Source: Candidatus Merdivicinus intestinigallinarum | GTDB lineage: Bacteria > Bacillota > Clostridia > Oscillospirales > Ruminococcaceae | Assembly: GCA_018713335.1 (NCBI GenBank) | Contig: DVOW01000032.1 | Coordinates: 1-64,000, forward strand | Length of the DNA stretch: 64,000 nucleotides | Direction: 5' to 3' | Shown: piece by piece, positions 6,241 to 15,020 of the stretch | Position numbering within the stretch: position 1 is the first letter of the stretch | How the letters are laid out: every line of letters starts with the position of its first letter | The notes under the pieces: model-generated | Told to the model about the DNA's origin: nothing | What the model saw: only the letters and a program-made list of their open reading frames with translations | Database searches by the model: none | Position numbers and translations under genes: made by a program

Positions 6241-6448
6241 TTTGAGCAGAAAGAATGGATCAGCTATTTTTCCGCAAAAAGAAAGATCGAAAAATTTTCA
6301 TAAAAGTCCGTAAGAAATTCAATGGCGTACCAGCTGAAAGTGTGGTTTAATCAGAATAGCGGCCGCGTCTTGACTGGGTGCTGCAAAATGGCAGCCAAAT
6401 TTTGGCGGCAGTACGGCAGTTATGACCGGCATTAAGGAGGAAAACACT

Positions 6449-9127
6449 ATGGAAAAATTAAAACTCTACATCATTTCCCACACCCACTGGGACCGGGAAT
6501 GGTACCAGTCCTTTCAAAACTACCGCTACCGGCTGGTGCGGGTTATAGACGATCTGATCGAGGGCCTGGAAAAGGACCCGGAATACAAAGTGTTCCATAT
6601 GGACGGCCAGACCATCGTCCTGGAGGACTACCTGGAAATCCGGCCGGAAAACGCCGACCGGCTGGCGAAACTCATCCGGGACGGCCGGATCCTCATCGGG
6701 CCCTGGTACGTCATGCCCGATGAATTTTTGATCAGCGGCGAGTCCCTGGTGAAGAACCTGCGGATGGGCCACAAGATCTGCAAGGATTACGGTGTGTCTC
6801 CCATGAAAAATGGCTATGTCACCGATATTTTCGGCCACAACAGCCAGTTCCCCCAGATCTTGAACGGCTTTGACATCCATTCCGCTACCCTGTACCGGGG
6901 TATCGGGGACTACGAAAAGGACGCCTTCCGCTGGCGTTCCCCCGACGGCAGTGAAGTCATTGCCGCCAAGCTGGAAGCGGAGCGTTCCTACTCCAACTTC
7001 TACTTCGCTGTCCGCTGGCCCTATGAGGAAAGGGGCTTTGACCCGGAAGACGCCGTGAAACGGATGCAGGTCCTGGTGGACCGGGCCCGGAAGATGGCGG
7101 CCACCGACATGGTGCTGATGATGGACGGCGTGGACCACTGCGGCATGGAGCATCATCTGCCGGAAATGCTCCGGCTCTTTGCAGAAAAGATCCCGGACAT
7201 TGAAATCGTCCACACCAAGCTGGAGGACTATTTTGCCCGGATCAAAGAGGAAACCCTGGACGTTATCGAAGGTTCCCTGTACAATGTGGCCAAAGAGGGC
7301 CTCAACAATCAGGTGCTGAAAAACGTCCTGTCCTCCATGGTCCATGTGAAGCAGGCCAACGACCGCTGCGAAACCCAGCTGACCGCCGTCACCGAGCCTT
7401 TGAACGCCTACTGCGAAATGCTGGGGGATGATTTGAAAGCCTACCGGGAGGACGATTACTCCTTGTCCCCCCGCCGGACATACCTGGATAAAGCCTGGAA
7501 AACCCTGATCCAGAACCACCCCCACGACTCCATCTGCGGATGCTCCCTGTCCGACGTACACCGGGACAACATCTACCGCTACCGCCAGGCCCAGCAGATG
7601 GCGGAAATCGCCGCCCAGGACTGTATTAACGTCCTGACCCGCAACATCCGCTGCAATGGGGAACATCAGGAGGCCGTCCTCCTTTACAACCCCTCCCAGA
7701 AGCCGGTGAAGGGCGTTCATGTCTTTGAACTGCCGGTGGCGGCCCATCCCAACCCCAACCGCCGGTTCTACGACGCCAACAATAATCCCCTGGAAGTCCA
7801 GATCCTGGACCAGCGGGAGGAAACCTTCGCCAACGAGCGCCTTCGCCAGCTGATCCGGTTCGATCCCATGTCGGTGCTGAAAGTTGCCGCCCATGTGGAA
7901 ATTCCCGCCCTCGGCTATACGGTCATTTACTGCGACAACCTGCAAAGCGAATTCCATCCGGAGCGCAAAGCATACGGCCACGACGTCTATTATCCGCCTC
8001 TGCGGCTTTCCGGCAGCCAGATGGTTTCCCACGGCCGCCTGGACAACGGTGCGCTGGTTGTGGAACTGAACAGCCGGGGCCTTTTGGATGTGACGGTGAA
8101 ATCCACCGGCAAGACCTACCGGAACCTGCACCTTCTGGAGGACCGTTCCGACGCCGGAGAAGGCTGGAACTGGCGGCCGGTGCGGTATGATTCCGCGGTT
8201 TACGGGGACAACGCTTTAGAGCAGTTCCAGGTGACGGCGGACGGCCCCTTCTGCACCGTCTGGAAACTCACCTACAACGTAAAGCTCCCTCACGGCCTGG
8301 CGGCGGACGGCATGCACCGGGGCGAAGGGGAGAAATTCCAGCGGGTCACCACCTGGCTCACCATCCCCAAAGACAGCGTACAGCTCACTTTCCGCACTGT
8401 GGTGGAAAACGAAACGGAAAACCACCGGCTGCGGGTGCTGTTCCCCACGGAACTGAAAACCGACTGCTTCTACACCAGGACCCCCTTCGATATGACCAAA
8501 TGGCCGGTGGCCCATCCCGACAACCGGCACCATGCGGAACTGGAAACCAAGGTGCACCCCTCCCAGGGCGTGACCTGGATAACGGACGGCAAGGACAGCG
8601 CTGCTATGTACGCCAAGGGCCTTTACGAGGTGGAAGTGACGGACAACGAGGAGCGGGCCATGGCCCTGACCCTGTTCCGGGCGGCCCAGCATGAAACCGG
8701 CACCTGCCATCCCGAGGACATCAAAATGCTCCGGAAGATGGAATTTGAATATGCCCTGGATTTTGGCACGGCAGAACAGGCCGCCGCTTTGGCAGAGGGC
8801 GAAGCTTACCGGGCAGGCGTCCGCGGCTACCGCTTTGAGCAGAACCCCGCCGCCGGCCCTCTGGGCCCCACAGGCCAGATGCTGGAAATCAGCGGGGACC
8901 AGATCGTGTCCGCTATCTTTGAGGACAGCGGCCGGACTTATGTCCGCCTTTACGACGTCAGCGGCAAGGACGGCAAAAGCGTCCTCACCTTCCCCCGGAA
9001 GGTGAAAGGGGCCCAATATGTCAACCTGAACCTGGAGCCTCAGTCCGATGCTGCTTTTGACAAAAATTCTGTCACCCTTTCCTGCCCGGCCCACAAGATC
9101 GTCACCGTAGCGGTGGAACTGGAATAA
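6449..9127 (+). CDS. Alpha-mannosidase, glycoside hydrolase family 38
   Basis: This 892-residue enzyme carries the GH38 zinc and active-site set: SHTHWDREWY near the N terminus (metal His and Asp), TDIFGHNSQ around residue 130 (the Asp nucleophile region), and NHPHDSICG around residue 350 (metal His), followed by the long beta-sandwich C-terminal half. No signal peptide is visible, so it is probably cytoplasmic and trims imported mannosides. Length and motifs also fit the MngB (mannosylglycerate hydrolase) branch, which the sequence alone does not separate. The start at 6449 follows TAAGGAGG. It is monocistronic, ended by the terminator at 9206; no sugar transporter is adjacent. The 270 bases upstream hold only the terminator at 6210 and no clear promoter. 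Confidence 0.9.
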   Translation: MEKLKLYIISHTHWDREWYQSFQNYRYRLVRVIDDLIEGLEKDPEYKVFHMDGQTIVLEDYLEIRPENADRLAKLIRDGRILIGPWYVMPDEFLISGESLVKNLRMGHKICKDYGVSPMKNGYVTDIFGHNSQFPQILNGFDIHSATLYRGIGDYEKDAFRWRSPDGSEVIAAKLEAERSYSNFYFAVRWPYEERGFDPEDAVKRMQVLVDRARKMAATDMVLMMDGVDHCGMEHHLPEMLRLFAEKIPDIEIVHTKLEDYFARIKEETLDVIEGSLYNVAKEGLNNQVLKNVLSSMVHVKQANDRCETQLTAVTEPLNAYCEMLGDDLKAYREDDYSLSPRRTYLDKAWKTLIQNHPHDSICGCSLSDVHRDNIYRYRQAQQMAEIAAQDCINVLTRNIRCNGEHQEAVLLYNPSQKPVKGVHVFELPVAAHPNPNRRFYDANNNPLEVQILDQREETFANERLRQLIRFDPMSVLKVAAHVEIPALGYTVIYCDNLQSEFHPERKAYGHDVYYPPLRLSGSQMVSHGRLDNGALVVELNSRGLLDVTVKSTGKTYRNLHLLEDRSDAGEGWNWRPVRYDSAVYGDNALEQFQVTADGPFCTVWKLTYNVKLPHGLAADGMHRGEGEKFQRVTTWLTIPKDSVQLTFRTVVENETENHRLRVLFPTELKTDCFYTRTPFDMTKWPVAHPDNRHHAELETKVHPSQGVTWITDGKDSAAMYAKGLYEVEVTDNEERAMALTLFRAAQHETGTCHPEDIKMLRKMEFEYALDFGTAEQAAALAEGEAYRAGVRGYRFEQNPAAGPLGPTGQMLEISGDQIVSAIFEDSGRTYVRLYDVSGKDGKSVLTFPRKVKGAQYVNLNLEPQSDAAFDKNSVTLSCPAHKIVTVAVELE

Positions 9128-9266: not shown

Positions 9267-9324
9267 GCAATTAATATTTCTCAAATAATTTACAAGCACT
9301 TCCCAAACAATCAGCCTCTATAAT
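9267..9324 (+). promoter_or_regulatory. Activator-type promoter with four 11-bp direct repeats (site 1)
   Basis: Units start at 9267, 9278, 9289 and 9300: GCAATTAATAT, TTCTCAAATAA, TTTACAAGCAC, TTCCCAAACAA. The -10 TATAAT starts at 9319, 19 bases after the last unit begins. No -35 hexamer is present at the usual place. The site aligns without gaps to those at 10627 and 14019. Tandem repeats with an 11-bp period suit an OmpR/PhoB-type regulator, and one is encoded at 11690. Confidence 0.72.
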
Positions 9325-9357: not shown

Positions 9358-10062
9358 ATGGACGCAAGGACCGCAGGAAATTGGGAACGGGCCGTTCCAC
9401 TGAAAAAGAGGACGGGATCGGGGTGCCCGAAGATTTCATACGCTAGTCTCTTCTGGCTGTTTCTGTTTGGCAGTGTGGCGGGCTTTGTCCTGGAGGGGCT
9501 TTGGTGCATTTTGAAAAAGGGCTATTGGGAGAGCCATCCCGCCACTGTCTGGGGCCCCTTCTGCATCATCTACGGTATCGGCGCGGTGGCGGTCTACCTT
9601 CTGTCGATTCCTTTGAAAGGCAGGGGCCTGCCGGTCCAGTTCCTGGCCTTTTCGGCCGCAGGCGCCGCGGTGGAGTATTTGGCAAGCCTTTTCCAGGAGC
9701 TCTGCTTCGGCTCGGTGTCCTGGAACTACAGCAAGCATTTTTTGAACCTGGGCGGATGGGTCAGCCTGAAGATGTCGCTGATGTGGGGCGTTTTGGGGAT
9801 CGCCTTTGTGTGGCTCGTTTTTCCGCTGCTCACCCGGCTGTTCGCCAAAATGCAGGGGAAGGGCTGGCGGATCGCCAGCGTTGTCCTCACGGTTTTTATG
9901 GCGGTCGATCTGGCGGTGACTGCCGCCGCTGTGGCCAGGTGGCGGGATCGGATCACGGACGGCATACCGTCTGACAGCAAGGTTGTCCAGTTTTTGGATA
10001 CCGCTTATGATGACGAAACCATGGCCCGGCTGTTCCCTAACATGAAATTTTGCCAGGAGTGA
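9358..10062 (+). CDS. Multi-pass membrane protein, putative ABC-transporter type IV (PF06541-like)
   Basis: 234 residues with about five hydrophobic segments starting at residue ~26. The stretches GFVLEGLWC and VWGPFCIIYGIG match the conserved features I know from the CmpB-like family annotated as putative ABC-transporter type IV; no ATPase partner is nearby and the true function of this family is unclear. The start follows GAGGTG. It is the first gene under the repeat-bearing promoter at 9267, so it probably belongs to the two-component regulon of this region. Confidence 0.75.
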   Translation: MDARTAGNWERAVPLKKRTGSGCPKISYASLFWLFLFGSVAGFVLEGLWCILKKGYWESHPATVWGPFCIIYGIGAVAVYLLSIPLKGRGLPVQFLAFSAAGAAVEYLASLFQELCFGSVSWNYSKHFLNLGGWVSLKMSLMWGVLGIAFVWLVFPLLTRLFAKMQGKGWRIASVVLTVFMAVDLAVTAAAVARWRDRITDGIPSDSKVVQFLDTAYDDETMARLFPNMKFCQE

Positions 10063-10163: not shown

Positions 10164-10241
10164 ATGAAAAACGTTTGGTTACCGGCAGCGGGAGCTGCTG
10201 TGCTGGCTGGGATCGCGGCGATCATTACCGCAGTGGTCTGA
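10164..10241 (+). CDS. 25-residue single-span membrane peptide
   Basis: Too short for the ORF track. ATG at 10164 follows a strong AAGGAGG at 10149-10155. The product starts MKNVWLPAAGAAVLAG and is almost wholly hydrophobic, i.e. one transmembrane span with a single basic residue at the N terminus. It lies 45 bases before the YQKIED-repeat gene and likely shares its transcript. I do not recognise it. The strong ribosome site is the main evidence that it is real; a small envelope-stress peptide is only a guess. Confidence 0.55.
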   Translation: MKNVWLPAAGAAVLAGIAAIITAVV

Positions 10242-10286
10242 AAGCGGAAAAAATTGTATAACAGATAGGCAAAAGGAGGAAGAGTC

Positions 10287-10562
10287 ATGAGCGAATATCA
10301 GCTGAAGCCCGGGAAAATCGGGGAGAAGATCATCGAGGGATACCAAAAAATCGAGGATAAATTTACGGAGACCTTCCTGGAAGAGGACAGTTCCCTGAAA
10401 ACCGGCGGCATGGCCCAAAAGGTTACGGCCGCTTACCAGAAAATTGAGGACACCATTGTCGGCGGTTACCAAAAGATCGAAGACACCTTCGTGGACAGGT
10501 TCCTGGAAAAGTCCGGGGAACCTTCCTCGGACGGGCAAAAACCGGCTGACCCGAAAAATTGA
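10287..10562 (+). CDS. Small protein with three YQKIED repeats
   Basis: 91 residues, charged, with no signal peptide. The motif YQKIED occurs three times (EGYQKIEDKF, AAYQKIEDTI, GGYQKIEDTF) within related amphipathic units that twice end in FxxxFLEE/K, so the protein is probably an elongated helical repeat. I have seen such repeat proteins beside two-component systems in gut Firmicutes but know no function. AGGAGG precedes the start and a clean terminator follows at 10573. It probably belongs with the 25-residue peptide upstream. Confidence 0.72.
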   Translation: MSEYQLKPGKIGEKIIEGYQKIEDKFTETFLEEDSSLKTGGMAQKVTAAYQKIEDTIVGGYQKIEDTFVDRFLEKSGEPSSDGQKPADPKN

Positions 10563-10572
10563 ACCATATGTC

Positions 10573-10602
10573 CAAAGACAGTATCCGTGGCTGCTGTCTT
10601 TG
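10573..10602 (+). terminator. Terminator after the YQKIED-repeat gene
   Basis: CAAAGACAG/CTGTCTTTG, a 9-bp perfect stem with a 12-nt loop, followed by an A/T-rich tail. Confidence 0.7.
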
Positions 10603-10626: not shown

Positions 10627-10684
10627 TTCATTAACAATTCTCAAACAATTCTGAAACCAAGCCAAAACAAAAGTATTTTACCAT
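10627..10684 (+). promoter_or_regulatory. Activator-type promoter with four 11-bp direct repeats (site 2)
   Basis: Units at 10627, 10638, 10649 and 10660: TTCATTAACAA, TTCTCAAACAA, TTCTGAAACCA, AGCCAAAACAA. In the same register as site 1, the -10 would be TACCAT at 10679; TATTTT at 10674 is an alternative. It precedes the operon that encodes the two-component system itself, which suggests autoregulation. Confidence 0.7.
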
Positions 10685-10733: not shown

Positions 10734-11627
10734 ATGGAACGGCTCAAAAAAGTATGGCGCAGAATCCTGTTTCCCGGCGGGAAGGCCATGATCTGCCTGG
10801 CCATTGCCAGCGCGGTTTTGCTGGCCTGCATTTTTGCCTTTGATTTTCGGAACAACATTTTTGCCTACCTGTCCTATATCCTGTCCGCGTATACCCTGAC
10901 GGTAATCTGCCTGGCGGCATACAAGCAGGTCAGAAAAGGCATTGCCGTCGTGGAAAGCAAAAACAAGCATATCAGCCGCTATCTGAACGATGTGCCCTTC
11001 CGCACCCATGTTTCCCTCTATACCTCGTTGGCCATCAATGTGATTTACGCCATCGCCAAATTCTTTTCCGGCATATTCTACCATTCCTTCTGGTTCGGCA
11101 GCATCGCCGTCTACTATATCTGCCTGGCCGTCATGCGCTTCCTGCTGCTCCGCCACGCAAACCGGCACGCTTTTGGGCAGGACCAGGCAGCGGAATACCG
11201 GAAATACCGGCTCTGCGGCGTTGTTTTGATGGTGCTGAACCTGGCCCTGACCGGCATGGTCATCCTTGTGGTCACCAAAAATCATACCTATCATTATCCC
11301 GGCACCATGATCTACGCTATGGGGGCCTACGCCTTTTACAGCATGATCACCGCTGTGGTCAATGTGGTCAAGTTCCGCAAGCACAACAGCCCTGCCCTTT
11401 CCGCTGCCAAGGCCATCAATCTGGCCTCCGCCCTGGTCTCCATGCTGGCTCTGGAAACGGCCATGCTGTCCCAGTTTGGGGGCGATGATTCCCCCCTGTT
11501 CCGGCGGGCCATGACGTCGGCCACCGGCGGCTTCGTCTGCCTGGCTGTTTTGGGGATGGCGGTATATATGATCGTCCGTTCCATCAAAAAATTAAAGGAA
11601 CTGAAAAGCAGCACAGCAGTTCAATAA
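10734..11627 (+). CDS. Multi-pass membrane protein of unknown function
   Basis: 297 residues with about seven or eight hydrophobic segments and short basic loops (for example RKGIAVVESKNKH). I recognise no family motif. It is the first gene of an operon with the response regulator, kinase and a small membrane protein, under the repeat-bearing promoter at 10627, so it may be a sensor partner or an output of the system. The start is supported by GCGGAGGG upstream. Confidence 0.75.
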   Translation: MERLKKVWRRILFPGGKAMICLAIASAVLLACIFAFDFRNNIFAYLSYILSAYTLTVICLAAYKQVRKGIAVVESKNKHISRYLNDVPFRTHVSLYTSLAINVIYAIAKFFSGIFYHSFWFGSIAVYYICLAVMRFLLLRHANRHAFGQDQAAEYRKYRLCGVVLMVLNLALTGMVILVVTKNHTYHYPGTMIYAMGAYAFYSMITAVVNVVKFRKHNSPALSAAKAINLASALVSMLALETAMLSQFGGDDSPLFRRAMTSATGGFVCLAVLGMAVYMIVRSIKKLKELKSSTAVQ

Positions 11628-11689: not shown

Positions 11690-12361
11690 ATGGTCCATAT
11701 TCTTGTTTTGGAAGACGACTTAAAGCTCAACCAGACGGTCTGCACCTACTTAAACGACAGCGGGTTCCAGGCAAAGGGGTGTTTAAACGCCAATGACGCC
11801 TATGAGGAGATGTACAACAACCTTTACGACCTGATTATCTCGGACATTATGCTGCCGGGGATTGACGGCTTTGAATTTGCTGAAAACGTGCGGCGGTTGA
11901 ACAAGCACATCCCTATCCTCTTTATGTCCGCGAAGGACGACCTGCCCTCCAAGCAGAAGGGGTTCCAGCTGGGCATCGACGACTACATGGTAAAGCCCAT
12001 TGAGCTGGACGAGCTGCTTTTACGGGTACGGGCCCTGCTGCGCCGGGCCAACATCGAGATGGAGCGCAGGCTGGTGGTAGGGAACCTGGAGCTGGACGCG
12101 GACGGCATGACCGCTTCCATTGACGGGGAGGAAATCCCTGTCACCACCCGGGAATTCAACATCCTCTACAAACTGCTTTCCTACCCCAAAAAGACCTTTT
12201 CCCGTGCCCAGCTCATGGACGAGTTCTGGGGCATCGAAAGCAGCACCAGCCTGCGGGCGGTGGACGTCTATGTGACCAAGCTGCGGGACAAATTCTCCGC
12301 CTGCGACGGCTTTAAGATCGTAACGGTCCGGGGACTGGGATATAAGGCGGTGCTGGAATGA
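11690..12361 (+). CDS. OmpR/PhoB-family response regulator
   Basis: 223 residues: an N-terminal receiver with acidic pair LEDD, phosphoacceptor Asp in IISDIMLPG (about residue 52) and the conserved Lys in YMVKPIE (about 104); then a C-terminal winged-helix DNA-binding domain ending TVRGLGYK. The gene overlaps the kinase gene by ATGA, a typical coupled pair. A possible extra -10 (TACAAT, 11643) lies just upstream. It is the obvious candidate to bind the repeats at 9267, 10627 and 14019. Confidence 0.92.
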   Translation: MVHILVLEDDLKLNQTVCTYLNDSGFQAKGCLNANDAYEEMYNNLYDLIISDIMLPGIDGFEFAENVRRLNKHIPILFMSAKDDLPSKQKGFQLGIDDYMVKPIELDELLLRVRALLRRANIEMERRLVVGNLELDADGMTASIDGEEIPVTTREFNILYKLLSYPKKTFSRAQLMDEFWGIESSTSLRAVDVYVTKLRDKFSACDGFKIVTVRGLGYKAVLE

Positions 12362-13437
12362 AAAGTACAAAATCCGCGGTGCGCCAGTCCCATTTCCCGG
12401 GGAGTTTGTGCGTCGTGTATTTCGTGTCCCTGCTCCTCATGTCCGGGGTCCACATGGGGCTGGTGACGCTGATTAACACCAAAGGGTGGAACGACATCGT
12501 CGCGGTCCTCATCCCAACTGTTTACTGGGCTTTGGTGGCGGTGGCGCTGACCCTGTACGCCCGGTGGCAGATCAAGAAGACCTACGAGGAACCCATGCAC
12601 CGGCTGGCCAAAGCCACCGCCAAGGTGGCCCAGGGGGATTTTTCCGTCTATGTGCCGCCCCTGCACACCGCCGACAAGCTGGACTACCTGGACGTTATGA
12701 TTTTGGATTTCAACACCATGGTGGAGGAGTTGGGGAGCATTGAAACCCTGAAAACCGACTTTTTCTCCAATGTTTCCCACGAGATGAAAACGCCCCTGGC
12801 CGTCATCCAGAATTACGCCCAGCTTCTCCAGAAGGAGAACCTGACGGAGGAGGAGCGCCGGGAATACGCGGATTCCATTTTGCAGTCCACCAGGAAACTG
12901 TCCAGCCTGATTACCAATATTCTCAAGCTGAACAAGCTGGAAAAGCAAACCATCCGTCCGGTGCCGGAGCAGTACGACCTGTGCCAGCAGCTCTGCGACT
13001 GCGCCCTGCAGTTTGAGGACGCCTGGGAAAAGAAGGATATTGAATTCATCGCGGAACTGGAAGACCGAGCCATCATCGAAGCAGATCCGGGACTTTTGGA
13101 ACTGGTCTGGACCAACCTCCTCTCCAACGCCGTCAAATTTACGCCGCCGGGCGGGACGGTGACTCTGACCCAGACCTCTGATGAGAAAGAGATCACGGTT
13201 TCCGTTTCCGACACCGGCTGCGGCATGGACGAAAAGACTCTGCGCCACATTTACGATAAATTCTACCAGGGCGACACCTCCCATTCCACCGAAGGGAACG
13301 GGTTAGGCCTGGCGCTGGTGCAGCGGATCTTGCAGCTTTCCAACGGGACCATTACCGTGAAAAGCCGCGTTGGGCAGGGCAGCACCTTTACCGTCCGGCT
13401 GCCCGCGCCGATTCACAGGGAGGAAATCAGTCAATGA
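12358..13437 (+). CDS. Membrane sensor histidine kinase
   Basis: 359 residues: two N-terminal membrane spans close together (about residues 18-38 and 48-67) with almost no extracellular loop, a HAMP-like linker (PMHRLAKATAKVAQGDF), the HisKA box FFSNVSHEMKTPLA with phospho-acceptor His, then HATPase motifs N-box (WTNLLSNAVKF), G1 (DTGCGMD) and G2 (GNGLGLAL). The tiny sensor loop suggests an intramembrane-sensing kinase that responds to the envelope or to a membrane partner, possibly one of its operon neighbours. It overlaps the regulator before it and the small gene after it. Confidence 0.92.
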   Translation: MKSTKSAVRQSHFPGSLCVVYFVSLLLMSGVHMGLVTLINTKGWNDIVAVLIPTVYWALVAVALTLYARWQIKKTYEEPMHRLAKATAKVAQGDFSVYVPPLHTADKLDYLDVMILDFNTMVEELGSIETLKTDFFSNVSHEMKTPLAVIQNYAQLLQKENLTEEERREYADSILQSTRKLSSLITNILKLNKLEKQTIRPVPEQYDLCQQLCDCALQFEDAWEKKDIEFIAELEDRAIIEADPGLLELVWTNLLSNAVKFTPPGGTVTLTQTSDEKEITVSVSDTGCGMDEKTLRHIYDKFYQGDTSHSTEGNGLGLALVQRILQLSNGTITVKSRVGQGSTFTVRLPAPIHREEISQ

Positions 13438-13955
13438 GTGAACAGAAAGATTTTGTGGGATACGAATACAAGGAGATCACCGGGCCGGACAGCCGGGTTT
13501 CTCAATACTTAGACTGCTATGAGTGCTTTGGGTGGCAGGCCGATGGAAATCTGCCCGCCGGAAGCCGCATGGGCCAGACCACTATCCGCATGAAGCGGGA
13601 CCGGAAAATCGTCAACAAAATGGAACTGACGCGCTTGCAGCGACATTTTGAAGCCTGCATCAGGGAGACGGAAGCGTTGGAGAAATCCAAGACTTCTGCC
13701 GCTACTATTTGGGCCTTGGTTGTCGGCATCATCGGCACTGCCTTTATGGCGGGGGCCACTTTTGCCGTGACGCATGAGCCGCCGCTGATCCCCCTGTGCA
13801 TCCTGCTGGCGGTGCCGGGCTTTCTCGGGTGGATCCTGCCCTATTTCCTGTACCGGCGCATTGCAGCCAGGCAGGCCAAAAAGCTCCAGCCGGTCATTGA
13901 GGCCAAGGAGGAAGAAATTTACGCAATCTGTGAAAAGGGGCACTCCCTGCTGTGA
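13434..13955 (+). CDS. Two-span membrane protein, paralogue of the gene at 14496
   Basis: 173 residues. It starts FVGYEYKEI, followed by a conserved soluble region (MKRDRKIVNKMELTRLQRHF) and two membrane spans near residues 86-135. The same plan and many identical residues occur in the product at 14496, so the two are paralogues inside one module. I do not recognise the family. ATGA overlap with the kinase gene means translational coupling. A terminator follows at 13971. Confidence 0.8.
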   Translation: MSEQKDFVGYEYKEITGPDSRVSQYLDCYECFGWQADGNLPAGSRMGQTTIRMKRDRKIVNKMELTRLQRHFEACIRETEALEKSKTSAATIWALVVGIIGTAFMAGATFAVTHEPPLIPLCILLAVPGFLGWILPYFLYRRIAARQAKKLQPVIEAKEEEIYAICEKGHSLL

Positions 13956-14018: not shown

Positions 14019-14076
14019 CCGATTAATTTTACGCAAACAATTCTGAAGCAATCCGCAAATATTCCGGCGGTACAAT
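14019..14076 (+). promoter_or_regulatory. Activator-type promoter with four 11-bp direct repeats (site 3)
   Basis: Units at 14019, 14030, 14041 and 14052: CCGATTAATTT, TACGCAAACAA, TTCTGAAGCAA, TCCGCAAATAT; the -10 TACAAT starts at 14071. The distance from first unit to -10 (52 bases) is the same as in sites 1 and 2. Confidence 0.72.
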
Positions 14077-14131: not shown

Positions 14132-14506
14132 ATGAACACTTATCAGGCAAGCGAAAGAGATCAGAGAAAAGCGGAGGATATCCGCCGCCAGTATGTTTCC
14201 CGGGAGGAAAACAAGATGGAGCAGCTCCAGAAGCTGGACAGCAAGGTAAAGCTGCCGGGAAAGATCGTCGGCAGTATCCTGGGGGTCATCGGGGCCCTGG
14301 TGATGGGGGCTGGCATGTCGCTGGTGATGGTGTGGGGCAATATGACCATGGGTCTGGCCCTCAGCATCCCCGGACTGGCCGTCCTTCTGCTGGGATTCCT
14401 CTCCTACTATCTGATTACCGGCAGCCGGAAGAAAAAATATGCCGCGGAAATCATGCGGCTGAGCAATGATGTGATGAACAAGGAGGGCGCGCAGAATGAG
14501 CGATAA
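14132..14506 (+). CDS. Small two-span membrane protein of unknown function
   Basis: 124 residues: a charged N-terminal half (possible coiled coil, QYVSREENKMEQLQKLDSK) followed by two hydrophobic spans rich in Gly and Leu (about residues 48-92) and a basic tail. AAAAGGAG precedes the ATG. It overlaps the next gene by 11 bases and is transcribed from the repeat-bearing promoter at 14019. No function recognised. Confidence 0.72.
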   Translation: MNTYQASERDQRKAEDIRRQYVSREENKMEQLQKLDSKVKLPGKIVGSILGVIGALVMGAGMSLVMVWGNMTMGLALSIPGLAVLLLGFLSYYLITGSRKKKYAAEIMRLSNDVMNKEGAQNER

Positions 14507-15020
14507 GGGTTTTGTCGGGTATGAATACCAGGAGGTGGCCGTCAAAAACGGCATGACCTCCGTTTACGCGGACGGGTATGAAAATTTCGGATGGAAGCTG
14601 GAAAATTCCGACATGGCTTTGGGGAAACCGGATTCTGTGGTCATGCGGTTCAAGCGCGACCGCAAGATCCGGAACAAACCGGAACTCACCCGGCTCCAGC
14701 GGCAGTTTGACGCCATTGTTTCCGAGATTGTTTCCCTGGAATCCTCCAAACGGCTGAAAGCCTCCATCGCCGCTTTTACCGTTGGGATTTTGGGGACGGC
14801 ATTCATGGCGGGTTCCGTTTTCGCCATTACCTCCGGCCTGCTCCTCCCCTGTATCATCCTTGCAGTCCCCGCCTTTATCGGCTGGATTGTCCCCTATTTC
14901 CTTTACCGTTCTATTGAGAAGAAAAAGACCGCATCCGTCACTCCGCTGATCGATTCCAAATATGACGAGCTGTACACCGTCTGTGAAAGGGCCAACGGCT
15001 TATTGGACCAGGCGGGATGA
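14496..15020 (+). CDS. Two-span membrane protein, paralogue of the gene at 13434
   Basis: 174 residues with the same layout as the product at 13434: GFVGYEYQEV at the start, the soluble motif FKRDRKIRNKPELTRLQRQF, two membrane spans, then a charged tail. Both paralogues sit in the same regulon but in different transcription units. Their function is unknown; a common soluble motif plus membrane anchor could mean hetero-oligomers. The start is fixed by GGAGGGCGC 8 bases upstream. Confidence 0.8.
   Translation: MSDKGFVGYEYQEVAVKNGMTSVYADGYENFGWKLENSDMALGKPDSVVMRFKRDRKIRNKPELTRLQRQFDAIVSEIVSLESSKRLKASIAAFTVGILGTAFMAGSVFAITSGLLLPCIILAVPAFIGWIVPYFLYRSIEKKKTASVTPLIDSKYDELYTVCERANGLLDQAG

Follow-up and report, generated by a model that had tools for sequence, protein, structure and literature searches.

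The window considered here, i.e., the whole 64,000-nucleotide stretch of DNA that was analysed, belongs to a 2.76-Mb genome represented by a draft assembly of 65 contigs, and all features of the gene cluster described below lie on its forward strand. A transcription unit headed by the gene of a 234-residue membrane protein of the ABC_trans_CmpB family (9358–10062; PF06541, E 1e-37, 130 bits at a cut-off of 25.9) ends with two small genes. The first is a 25-codon ORF (10164–10241, from ATG to TGA), preceded by the strong ribosome site aaggaggtccatgat and encoding a single-span membrane peptide, MKNVWLPAAGAAVLAGIAAIITAVV. The second, 45 bases further on, also has a strong ribosome site, aaaaggaggaagagtc, and encodes a protein of 91 residues (10287–10562), in which the hexapeptide YQKIED starts at residues 19, 50, and 61, that is, with spacings of 31 and 11. 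A terminator-like hairpin of 11 pairs (10573–10602) closes the unit. Both genes are present as the original prediction described them. Neither the peptide nor the 91-residue protein, which the prediction called easily missed by annotation, reaches the curated cut-off of a family in Pfam, NCBIfam, or PHROGs.

The second unit comprises the genes of a 297-residue multi-span membrane protein (TM297, 10734–11627), an OmpR-type response regulator with the Pfam domains Response_reg and Trans_reg_C (11690–12361), a sensor kinase with HisKA and HATPase_c (12358–13437), and a 173-residue membrane protein (D173, 13434–13955); the third unit encodes membrane proteins of 124 (D124, 14132–14506) and 174 residues (14496–15020). 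TM297 and D173, the latter on the 3' side of the kinase gene, are conserved neighbours in relatives. Among the neighbours in the window, only CmpB and the two-component proteins reach the curated cut-off of a family in Pfam, NCBIfam, or PHROGs. According to hydropathy, the kinase has two spans, at residues ~15–38 and ~46–68, separated by a loop of ~8 residues, and a weak HAMP is its only Pfam match besides the kinase domains. It thus has the layout of intramembrane-sensing kinases, namely, two predicted spans, a loop shorter than ~25 residues, and no separate sensor domain; many such kinases answer envelope stress. By inspection, the 173- and 174-residue proteins, which sit in two different units and have no family above cut-off, look like paralogues, sharing the FVGYEY start and similar spans. 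Just upstream of the cluster and outside the regulon, a 901-residue ORF (6422–9127) looks like a GH38-type alpha-mannosidase, with the motif SHTHWDREW seen by inspection.

The best sites in the window for a triple AAACAA repeat with an 11-base period all fall within this cluster, on the coding strand. Box 1 (9283–9324), with three AAACAA-like repeats 8 bases before TATAAT, precedes the unit of CmpB, the peptide, and the YQKIED protein; box 2 (10632–10684), with four 11-base repeats and the −10 hexamer TACCAT, precedes the genes of the 297-residue protein, the regulator, and the kinase; box 3 (14035–14076) precedes the genes of the 124- and 174-residue proteins. In the inspected sites, 8 bases separate the last repeat from a −10-like hexamer, which places this repeat over the −35 position. 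The simple motif without the −10 hexamer has background matches elsewhere at the rate of its control, and only the extended motif (repeats plus −10) was used. The extended motif has exactly three matches in the genome, at 9283 (CmpB), 10643 (297-residue protein), and 14035 (124-residue protein), and the reversed motif, taken as a control, has none. Eleven other genomes contribute 13 further matches, giving 16 in 12 genomes; the sites checked against gene maps precede repeat-protein, regulator, or neighbouring cluster genes, and no match occurs in the searched genomes without this cluster subtype. Of 69 further related loci, 67 have the best site on the coding strand, the common positions being about −590 or −480 (upstream of the leading gene in the unit), −90 (where the repeat gene comes first), and +300 (before the regulator).

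Direct repeats about one helical turn apart near −35 are typical of OmpR-type regulators, and since the regulator of the cluster is of this type, we infer that it binds the promoter repeats. The anatomy of the regulon is well supported, and the restriction of the motif to the cluster makes it directly testable. The association of the two small genes with a neighbouring sensor kinase, as originally proposed, stands insofar as promoter boxes absent from the rest of the genome are common to them and the kinase, but the kinase gene lies ~1.8 kb downstream, in another transcription unit.

Cassettes of relatives consist of the same kinds of parts in a different order. In genome G011 (locus L098), a 122-residue membrane protein, a 32-residue peptide, and the repeat protein are followed by the regulator, the kinase, and membrane proteins of 304 and 127 residues; the 124-residue protein of the window has a counterpart in this cassette as well. 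In G014, G346, G250, and G181 the order is the regulator, the kinase, D173 (or its place), the repeat protein, and the 122-residue protein, with a membrane protein of ~300 residues also present in most. In the window, CmpB heads the peptide unit, and a copy of the 122-residue protein is absent from the mapped stretch. In G005, a genome of the same genus, synteny breaks inside the gene of the 297-residue protein (position 11102 of the window, 3211 of L096); the peptide and the repeat protein are missing, their place being taken by an unrelated gene, and the regulator, the kinase, and the third promoter box, the only box retained, are kept at 92% DNA identity. No orthologue of the peptide was found within the genus, G001 having the other subtype only.

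Of 398 genomes from the family to which this genome belongs, 53 encode relatives of the 91-residue protein, and the repeat family is found in 33 of 391 genomes of the class. A scan of species genomes yielded 256 stretches encoding the repeat family, the best 80 of which come mostly from gut Lachnospiraceae, Oscillospiraceae, and unnamed Clostridia. A typical member reads MAKSKLVKANEKIA..V..GYKKIE..VVGGYxKIEDxFVDxFLTxEGETVEEAKxRL, and the repeat unit spans 11 residues. The 91-residue protein has at least two YxK(I/V)E repeats of 11 residues followed by FV(D/E)xFL (GYQKIEDTFVDRFL at residues 60–73), and the profile of the repeat family matches in its own genome at 5.5e-15. It groups with proteins from several genera (45–62% identity) that start with MS(E/T)Y..KPGK.G, have SLKTGGMA or a similar string in the middle, and carry a variable polar tail in place of the second, C-terminal helix GETxEEAKxRL. 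The absence of this helix makes the protein, judged by its sequence, a member of a variant subfamily of an unnamed clostridial family with 11-residue YxKIE repeats. Comparison with solved structures, both by sequence and by fold, gave nothing significant, and the repeat strings turned up in no pertinent setting among the papers searched. The repeat protein and its neighbours are present in many gut Clostridia, and yet matched no curated Pfam or NCBIfam family.

Structure prediction, which had been suggested for the repeat protein, was confident for a relative but not for the protein of the window. A 70-residue relative (L013) is predicted with a pLDDT of 90.5 as a helix at residues 5–44 and a second one at 51–69. 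When the first helix is wound at ~98 degrees per residue, its hydrophobic residues line up in one main strip; the hydrophobic moment peaks at 97.5 degrees, close to the 98.2 of an 11/3 helix, and no shuffle out of 3000 reached this amphipathicity. The fold predicted for the 91-residue protein is of low confidence (pLDDT 53), with helices at residues 11–31 and 42–72, both significantly amphipathic (matched by 0.5% and 0.1% of shuffles, respectively).

At related loci, the repeat gene may be preceded by a conserved peptide gene with its own ribosome site, the product, e.g., MKKLIIPAVVTAVAGAAAAVIAVIRRKTANQY, having ~32 residues, a single membrane span, and a basic tail. A hydrophobic ORF of this kind with a ribosome site was retained at 23 of 79 related loci, after seven of 30 first-pass matches had been dropped on inspection as ends of neighbouring membrane genes; as the loci were picked by similarity to one rabbit-gut genome, this proportion is not a general frequency. 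The same scan matched 0.18% of shuffled upstream regions and one of 282 other genes at the same loci. In 16 copies of equal length, pN/pS is 0.45 in frame versus 0.93 and 0.98 in the other frames, and hence the peptides of the relatives are very likely translated and constrained by purifying selection. The pairing claimed for the window exists as a conserved pair, but the conserved peptide is ~32 residues long with a basic tail, rather than 25.

The peptide of the window shares with these relatives the MKxxxxP start, the single hydrophobic span, the ribosome site, and the slot directly 5' of the repeat gene, and its frame ranks best in its upstream region in a profile scan (9.5 bits). What its open frame lacks is the basic C-terminal tail: the in-frame TGA at 10239–10241 is followed by KRKKLYNR, which corresponds to RRKTANQY of the relatives, and a TAG ending at 10268. 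Against a profile of 21 relatives the 25-residue peptide scores 6.4 bits, and 13.4 bits together with the codons behind the stop; the latter is a modest score, attained by 47 of 5000 shuffles of the same composition, and is supplemented by the tail itself and by the position where the extended frame ends, 18 bases before the ATG at 10287. The comparison of spacing that had been advised with the original prediction bears this out, the gap between the peptide and repeat genes being 17–23 bases (~20) in relatives. In the simplest reading, the peptide looks like a family member cut by a nonsense codon before its basic tail, and statements about it are weaker than those about its relatives. The conservation on which the original prediction had staked the peptide thus applies to the frame but not to the length of 25 codons. 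The case also illustrates how a truncated copy may come with a good ribosome site and a clean ORF, and how it shows up only when loci are compared.

Having lost its tail, this copy is probably weakened or being lost. A rival reading, to which we assign a weight only a little short of even, holds that the peptide is decaying or dispensable here, the 25-codon ORF being a pseudogene remnant with a leftover ribosome site, and that only the YQKIED protein matters. It draws on the TGA, on decayed peptide copies at four other loci (L019, L027, L039, and L059), and on the closest relatives of the 91-residue protein (L100–L102, L104, L107), where the repeat protein is present and the peptide undetectable. 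On the other hand, the start, the ribosome site, and the hydrophobic span are intact in the window, and some relatives have short tails too, e.g., the 28-residue peptide of L032. The closest relatives imply that the peptide is not essential to the repeat protein, and as an accessory to a protein that often does without it, it may easily tolerate the loss of the tail.

A possible second case, in which a stop interrupts a peptide frame immediately ahead of basic residues as in the window (AAAVISAA*EKAKQSK), was seen at L089 upstream of position 210; this is a weak match and may be due to chance. The candidate reading of the window peptide as an LPXTG sortase anchor, suggested by LPAAG, the hydrophobic span, and the basic residues (behind the stop), was rejected: the scores, 12.5 of 20 and 13.5 of 15.9 bits, are under both cut-offs, the 25-residue ORF has no surface domain, and the relatives have IPAVV, not LPxTG.

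Among known systems, the arrangement resembles the LiaI–LiaH/LiaRS system of Bacillus subtilis and the Psp family, with a two-component operon, a small membrane protein, a helical surface protein, and a short-loop kinase. In that system, LiaI anchors and recruits LiaH, a helical protein of the membrane surface, under LiaRS control (PMC9239133). However, the 91-residue protein has no match to PspA_IM30 (PF04012) at E 1, unlike LiaH and PspA; the regulator is OmpR-type (Trans_reg_C) and the kinase HisKA, whereas LiaSR is NarL-type and HisKA_3; and the repeat helix belongs to a protein of 60–90 residues, versus a long coiled coil in LiaH. By these features of sequence, the repeat protein is no member of Lia or Psp. 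Bce/Vra-type detoxification modules of Bacillota have a short-loop kinase and an OmpR-type regulator as well, but the cassette lacks a BceAB-type transporter, its neighbours being CmpB (PF06541) and unnamed membrane proteins. The repeat helix itself follows the pattern of alpha-synuclein, LEA, and perilipin-type helices, i.e., an 11-residue period, a hydrophobic strip at ~98 degrees per residue, and a polar face rich in Lys and Glu; unlike them, it is bacterial, has two to four repeats, and is followed by a second helix in most relatives, so that the likeness is in pattern and no sequence kinship is claimed. The 11-residue repeats of alpha-synuclein form an amphipathic helix that folds on lipid (PMC7430991).

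Taking this into account, we propose, with about even confidence, that gut Clostridia possess a dedicated two-component regulon of the envelope-stress type, of which the peptide and the repeat protein are one output arm; it would be analogous to LiaI/LiaH but built from unrelated parts. The gene module probably responds to damage of the cell membrane. The kinase, with its near-zero outside loop, would detect a perturbation in or at the membrane and then phosphorylate the OmpR-type regulator. The latter would bind three to four direct repeats with an 11-base period that cover the −35 region at three promoters, turning on the CmpB–peptide–YQKIED, 297-residue protein–regulator–kinase–173-residue protein, and 124–174-residue protein units. 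The YQKIED protein would then lie on the inner membrane surface via its amphipathic helix of 11-residue repeats, and the single-span peptide would be its membrane partner, in the manner of LiaI towards LiaH, with a basic cytoplasmic tail that would aid the recruitment or retention of the repeat protein. More tentatively, and at clearly less than even confidence, the whole may be an undescribed membrane-protection system: an intramembrane kinase and an OmpR regulator whose only target, via triple 11-base boxes, is their own cluster would send a short synuclein-like helix of 11-residue repeats, together with a single-span anchor peptide, to the membrane under stress. Should its components function as supposed, this would be an envelope-stress system whose components differ from those of Lia, Psp, and Bce.

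A peptide and a kinase in one regulon, the latter with an intramembrane layout that a single-span peptide could touch, might also suggest that the peptide acts back on the kinase as a feedback regulator and does not partner the repeat protein, small-membrane-protein connectors such as SafA and MgrB being known; we consider this unlikely, as the position of the peptide is fixed beside the repeat protein and not beside the kinase. It is rather improbable that the TGA arose through faulty sequencing or assembly, the peptide gene being an ordinary full-length member: only one codon is concerned, neither the frame nor the gap beyond it is disturbed, and the assembly is a draft, but this explanation has no positive support. 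Finally, a toxin-like or pore-forming, membrane-active peptide with the YQKIED protein as its protective partner would agree with the co-transcription of a small hydrophobic peptide and a soluble protein, and with the presence next to the repeat protein, in three genomes (L115/L077, L130, L132), of another hydrophobic protein bearing a double-glycine-like leader, but is very improbable given that the repeat protein occurs widely in the absence of the peptide, that repeated loss of the peptide with the repeat protein kept fits an accessory, and that no toxin is matched in Pfam, NCBIfam, or PHROG.

The leader-bearing protein just mentioned has ~96 residues, with the leader LPxxxxLMTxEE...GG and a hydrophobic C-terminal part, and is encoded next to the repeat-protein unit at L115 (1134–1433, directly 5' of the repeat gene, as in L077), L130 (5787–6077, reverse strand), and L132 (5941–6240, reverse strand); it may serve as an alternative partner, small and either membrane-located or secreted. 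A second layout (L097, 724–1796; L004, L007, L008, and L009) combines the repeat protein with a membrane protein of ~225 residues, a ~125-residue protein of the form MKKSSFV..LGTVSG.LFALGMCM, and a divergent TetR-type regulator, which replaces the two-component system.
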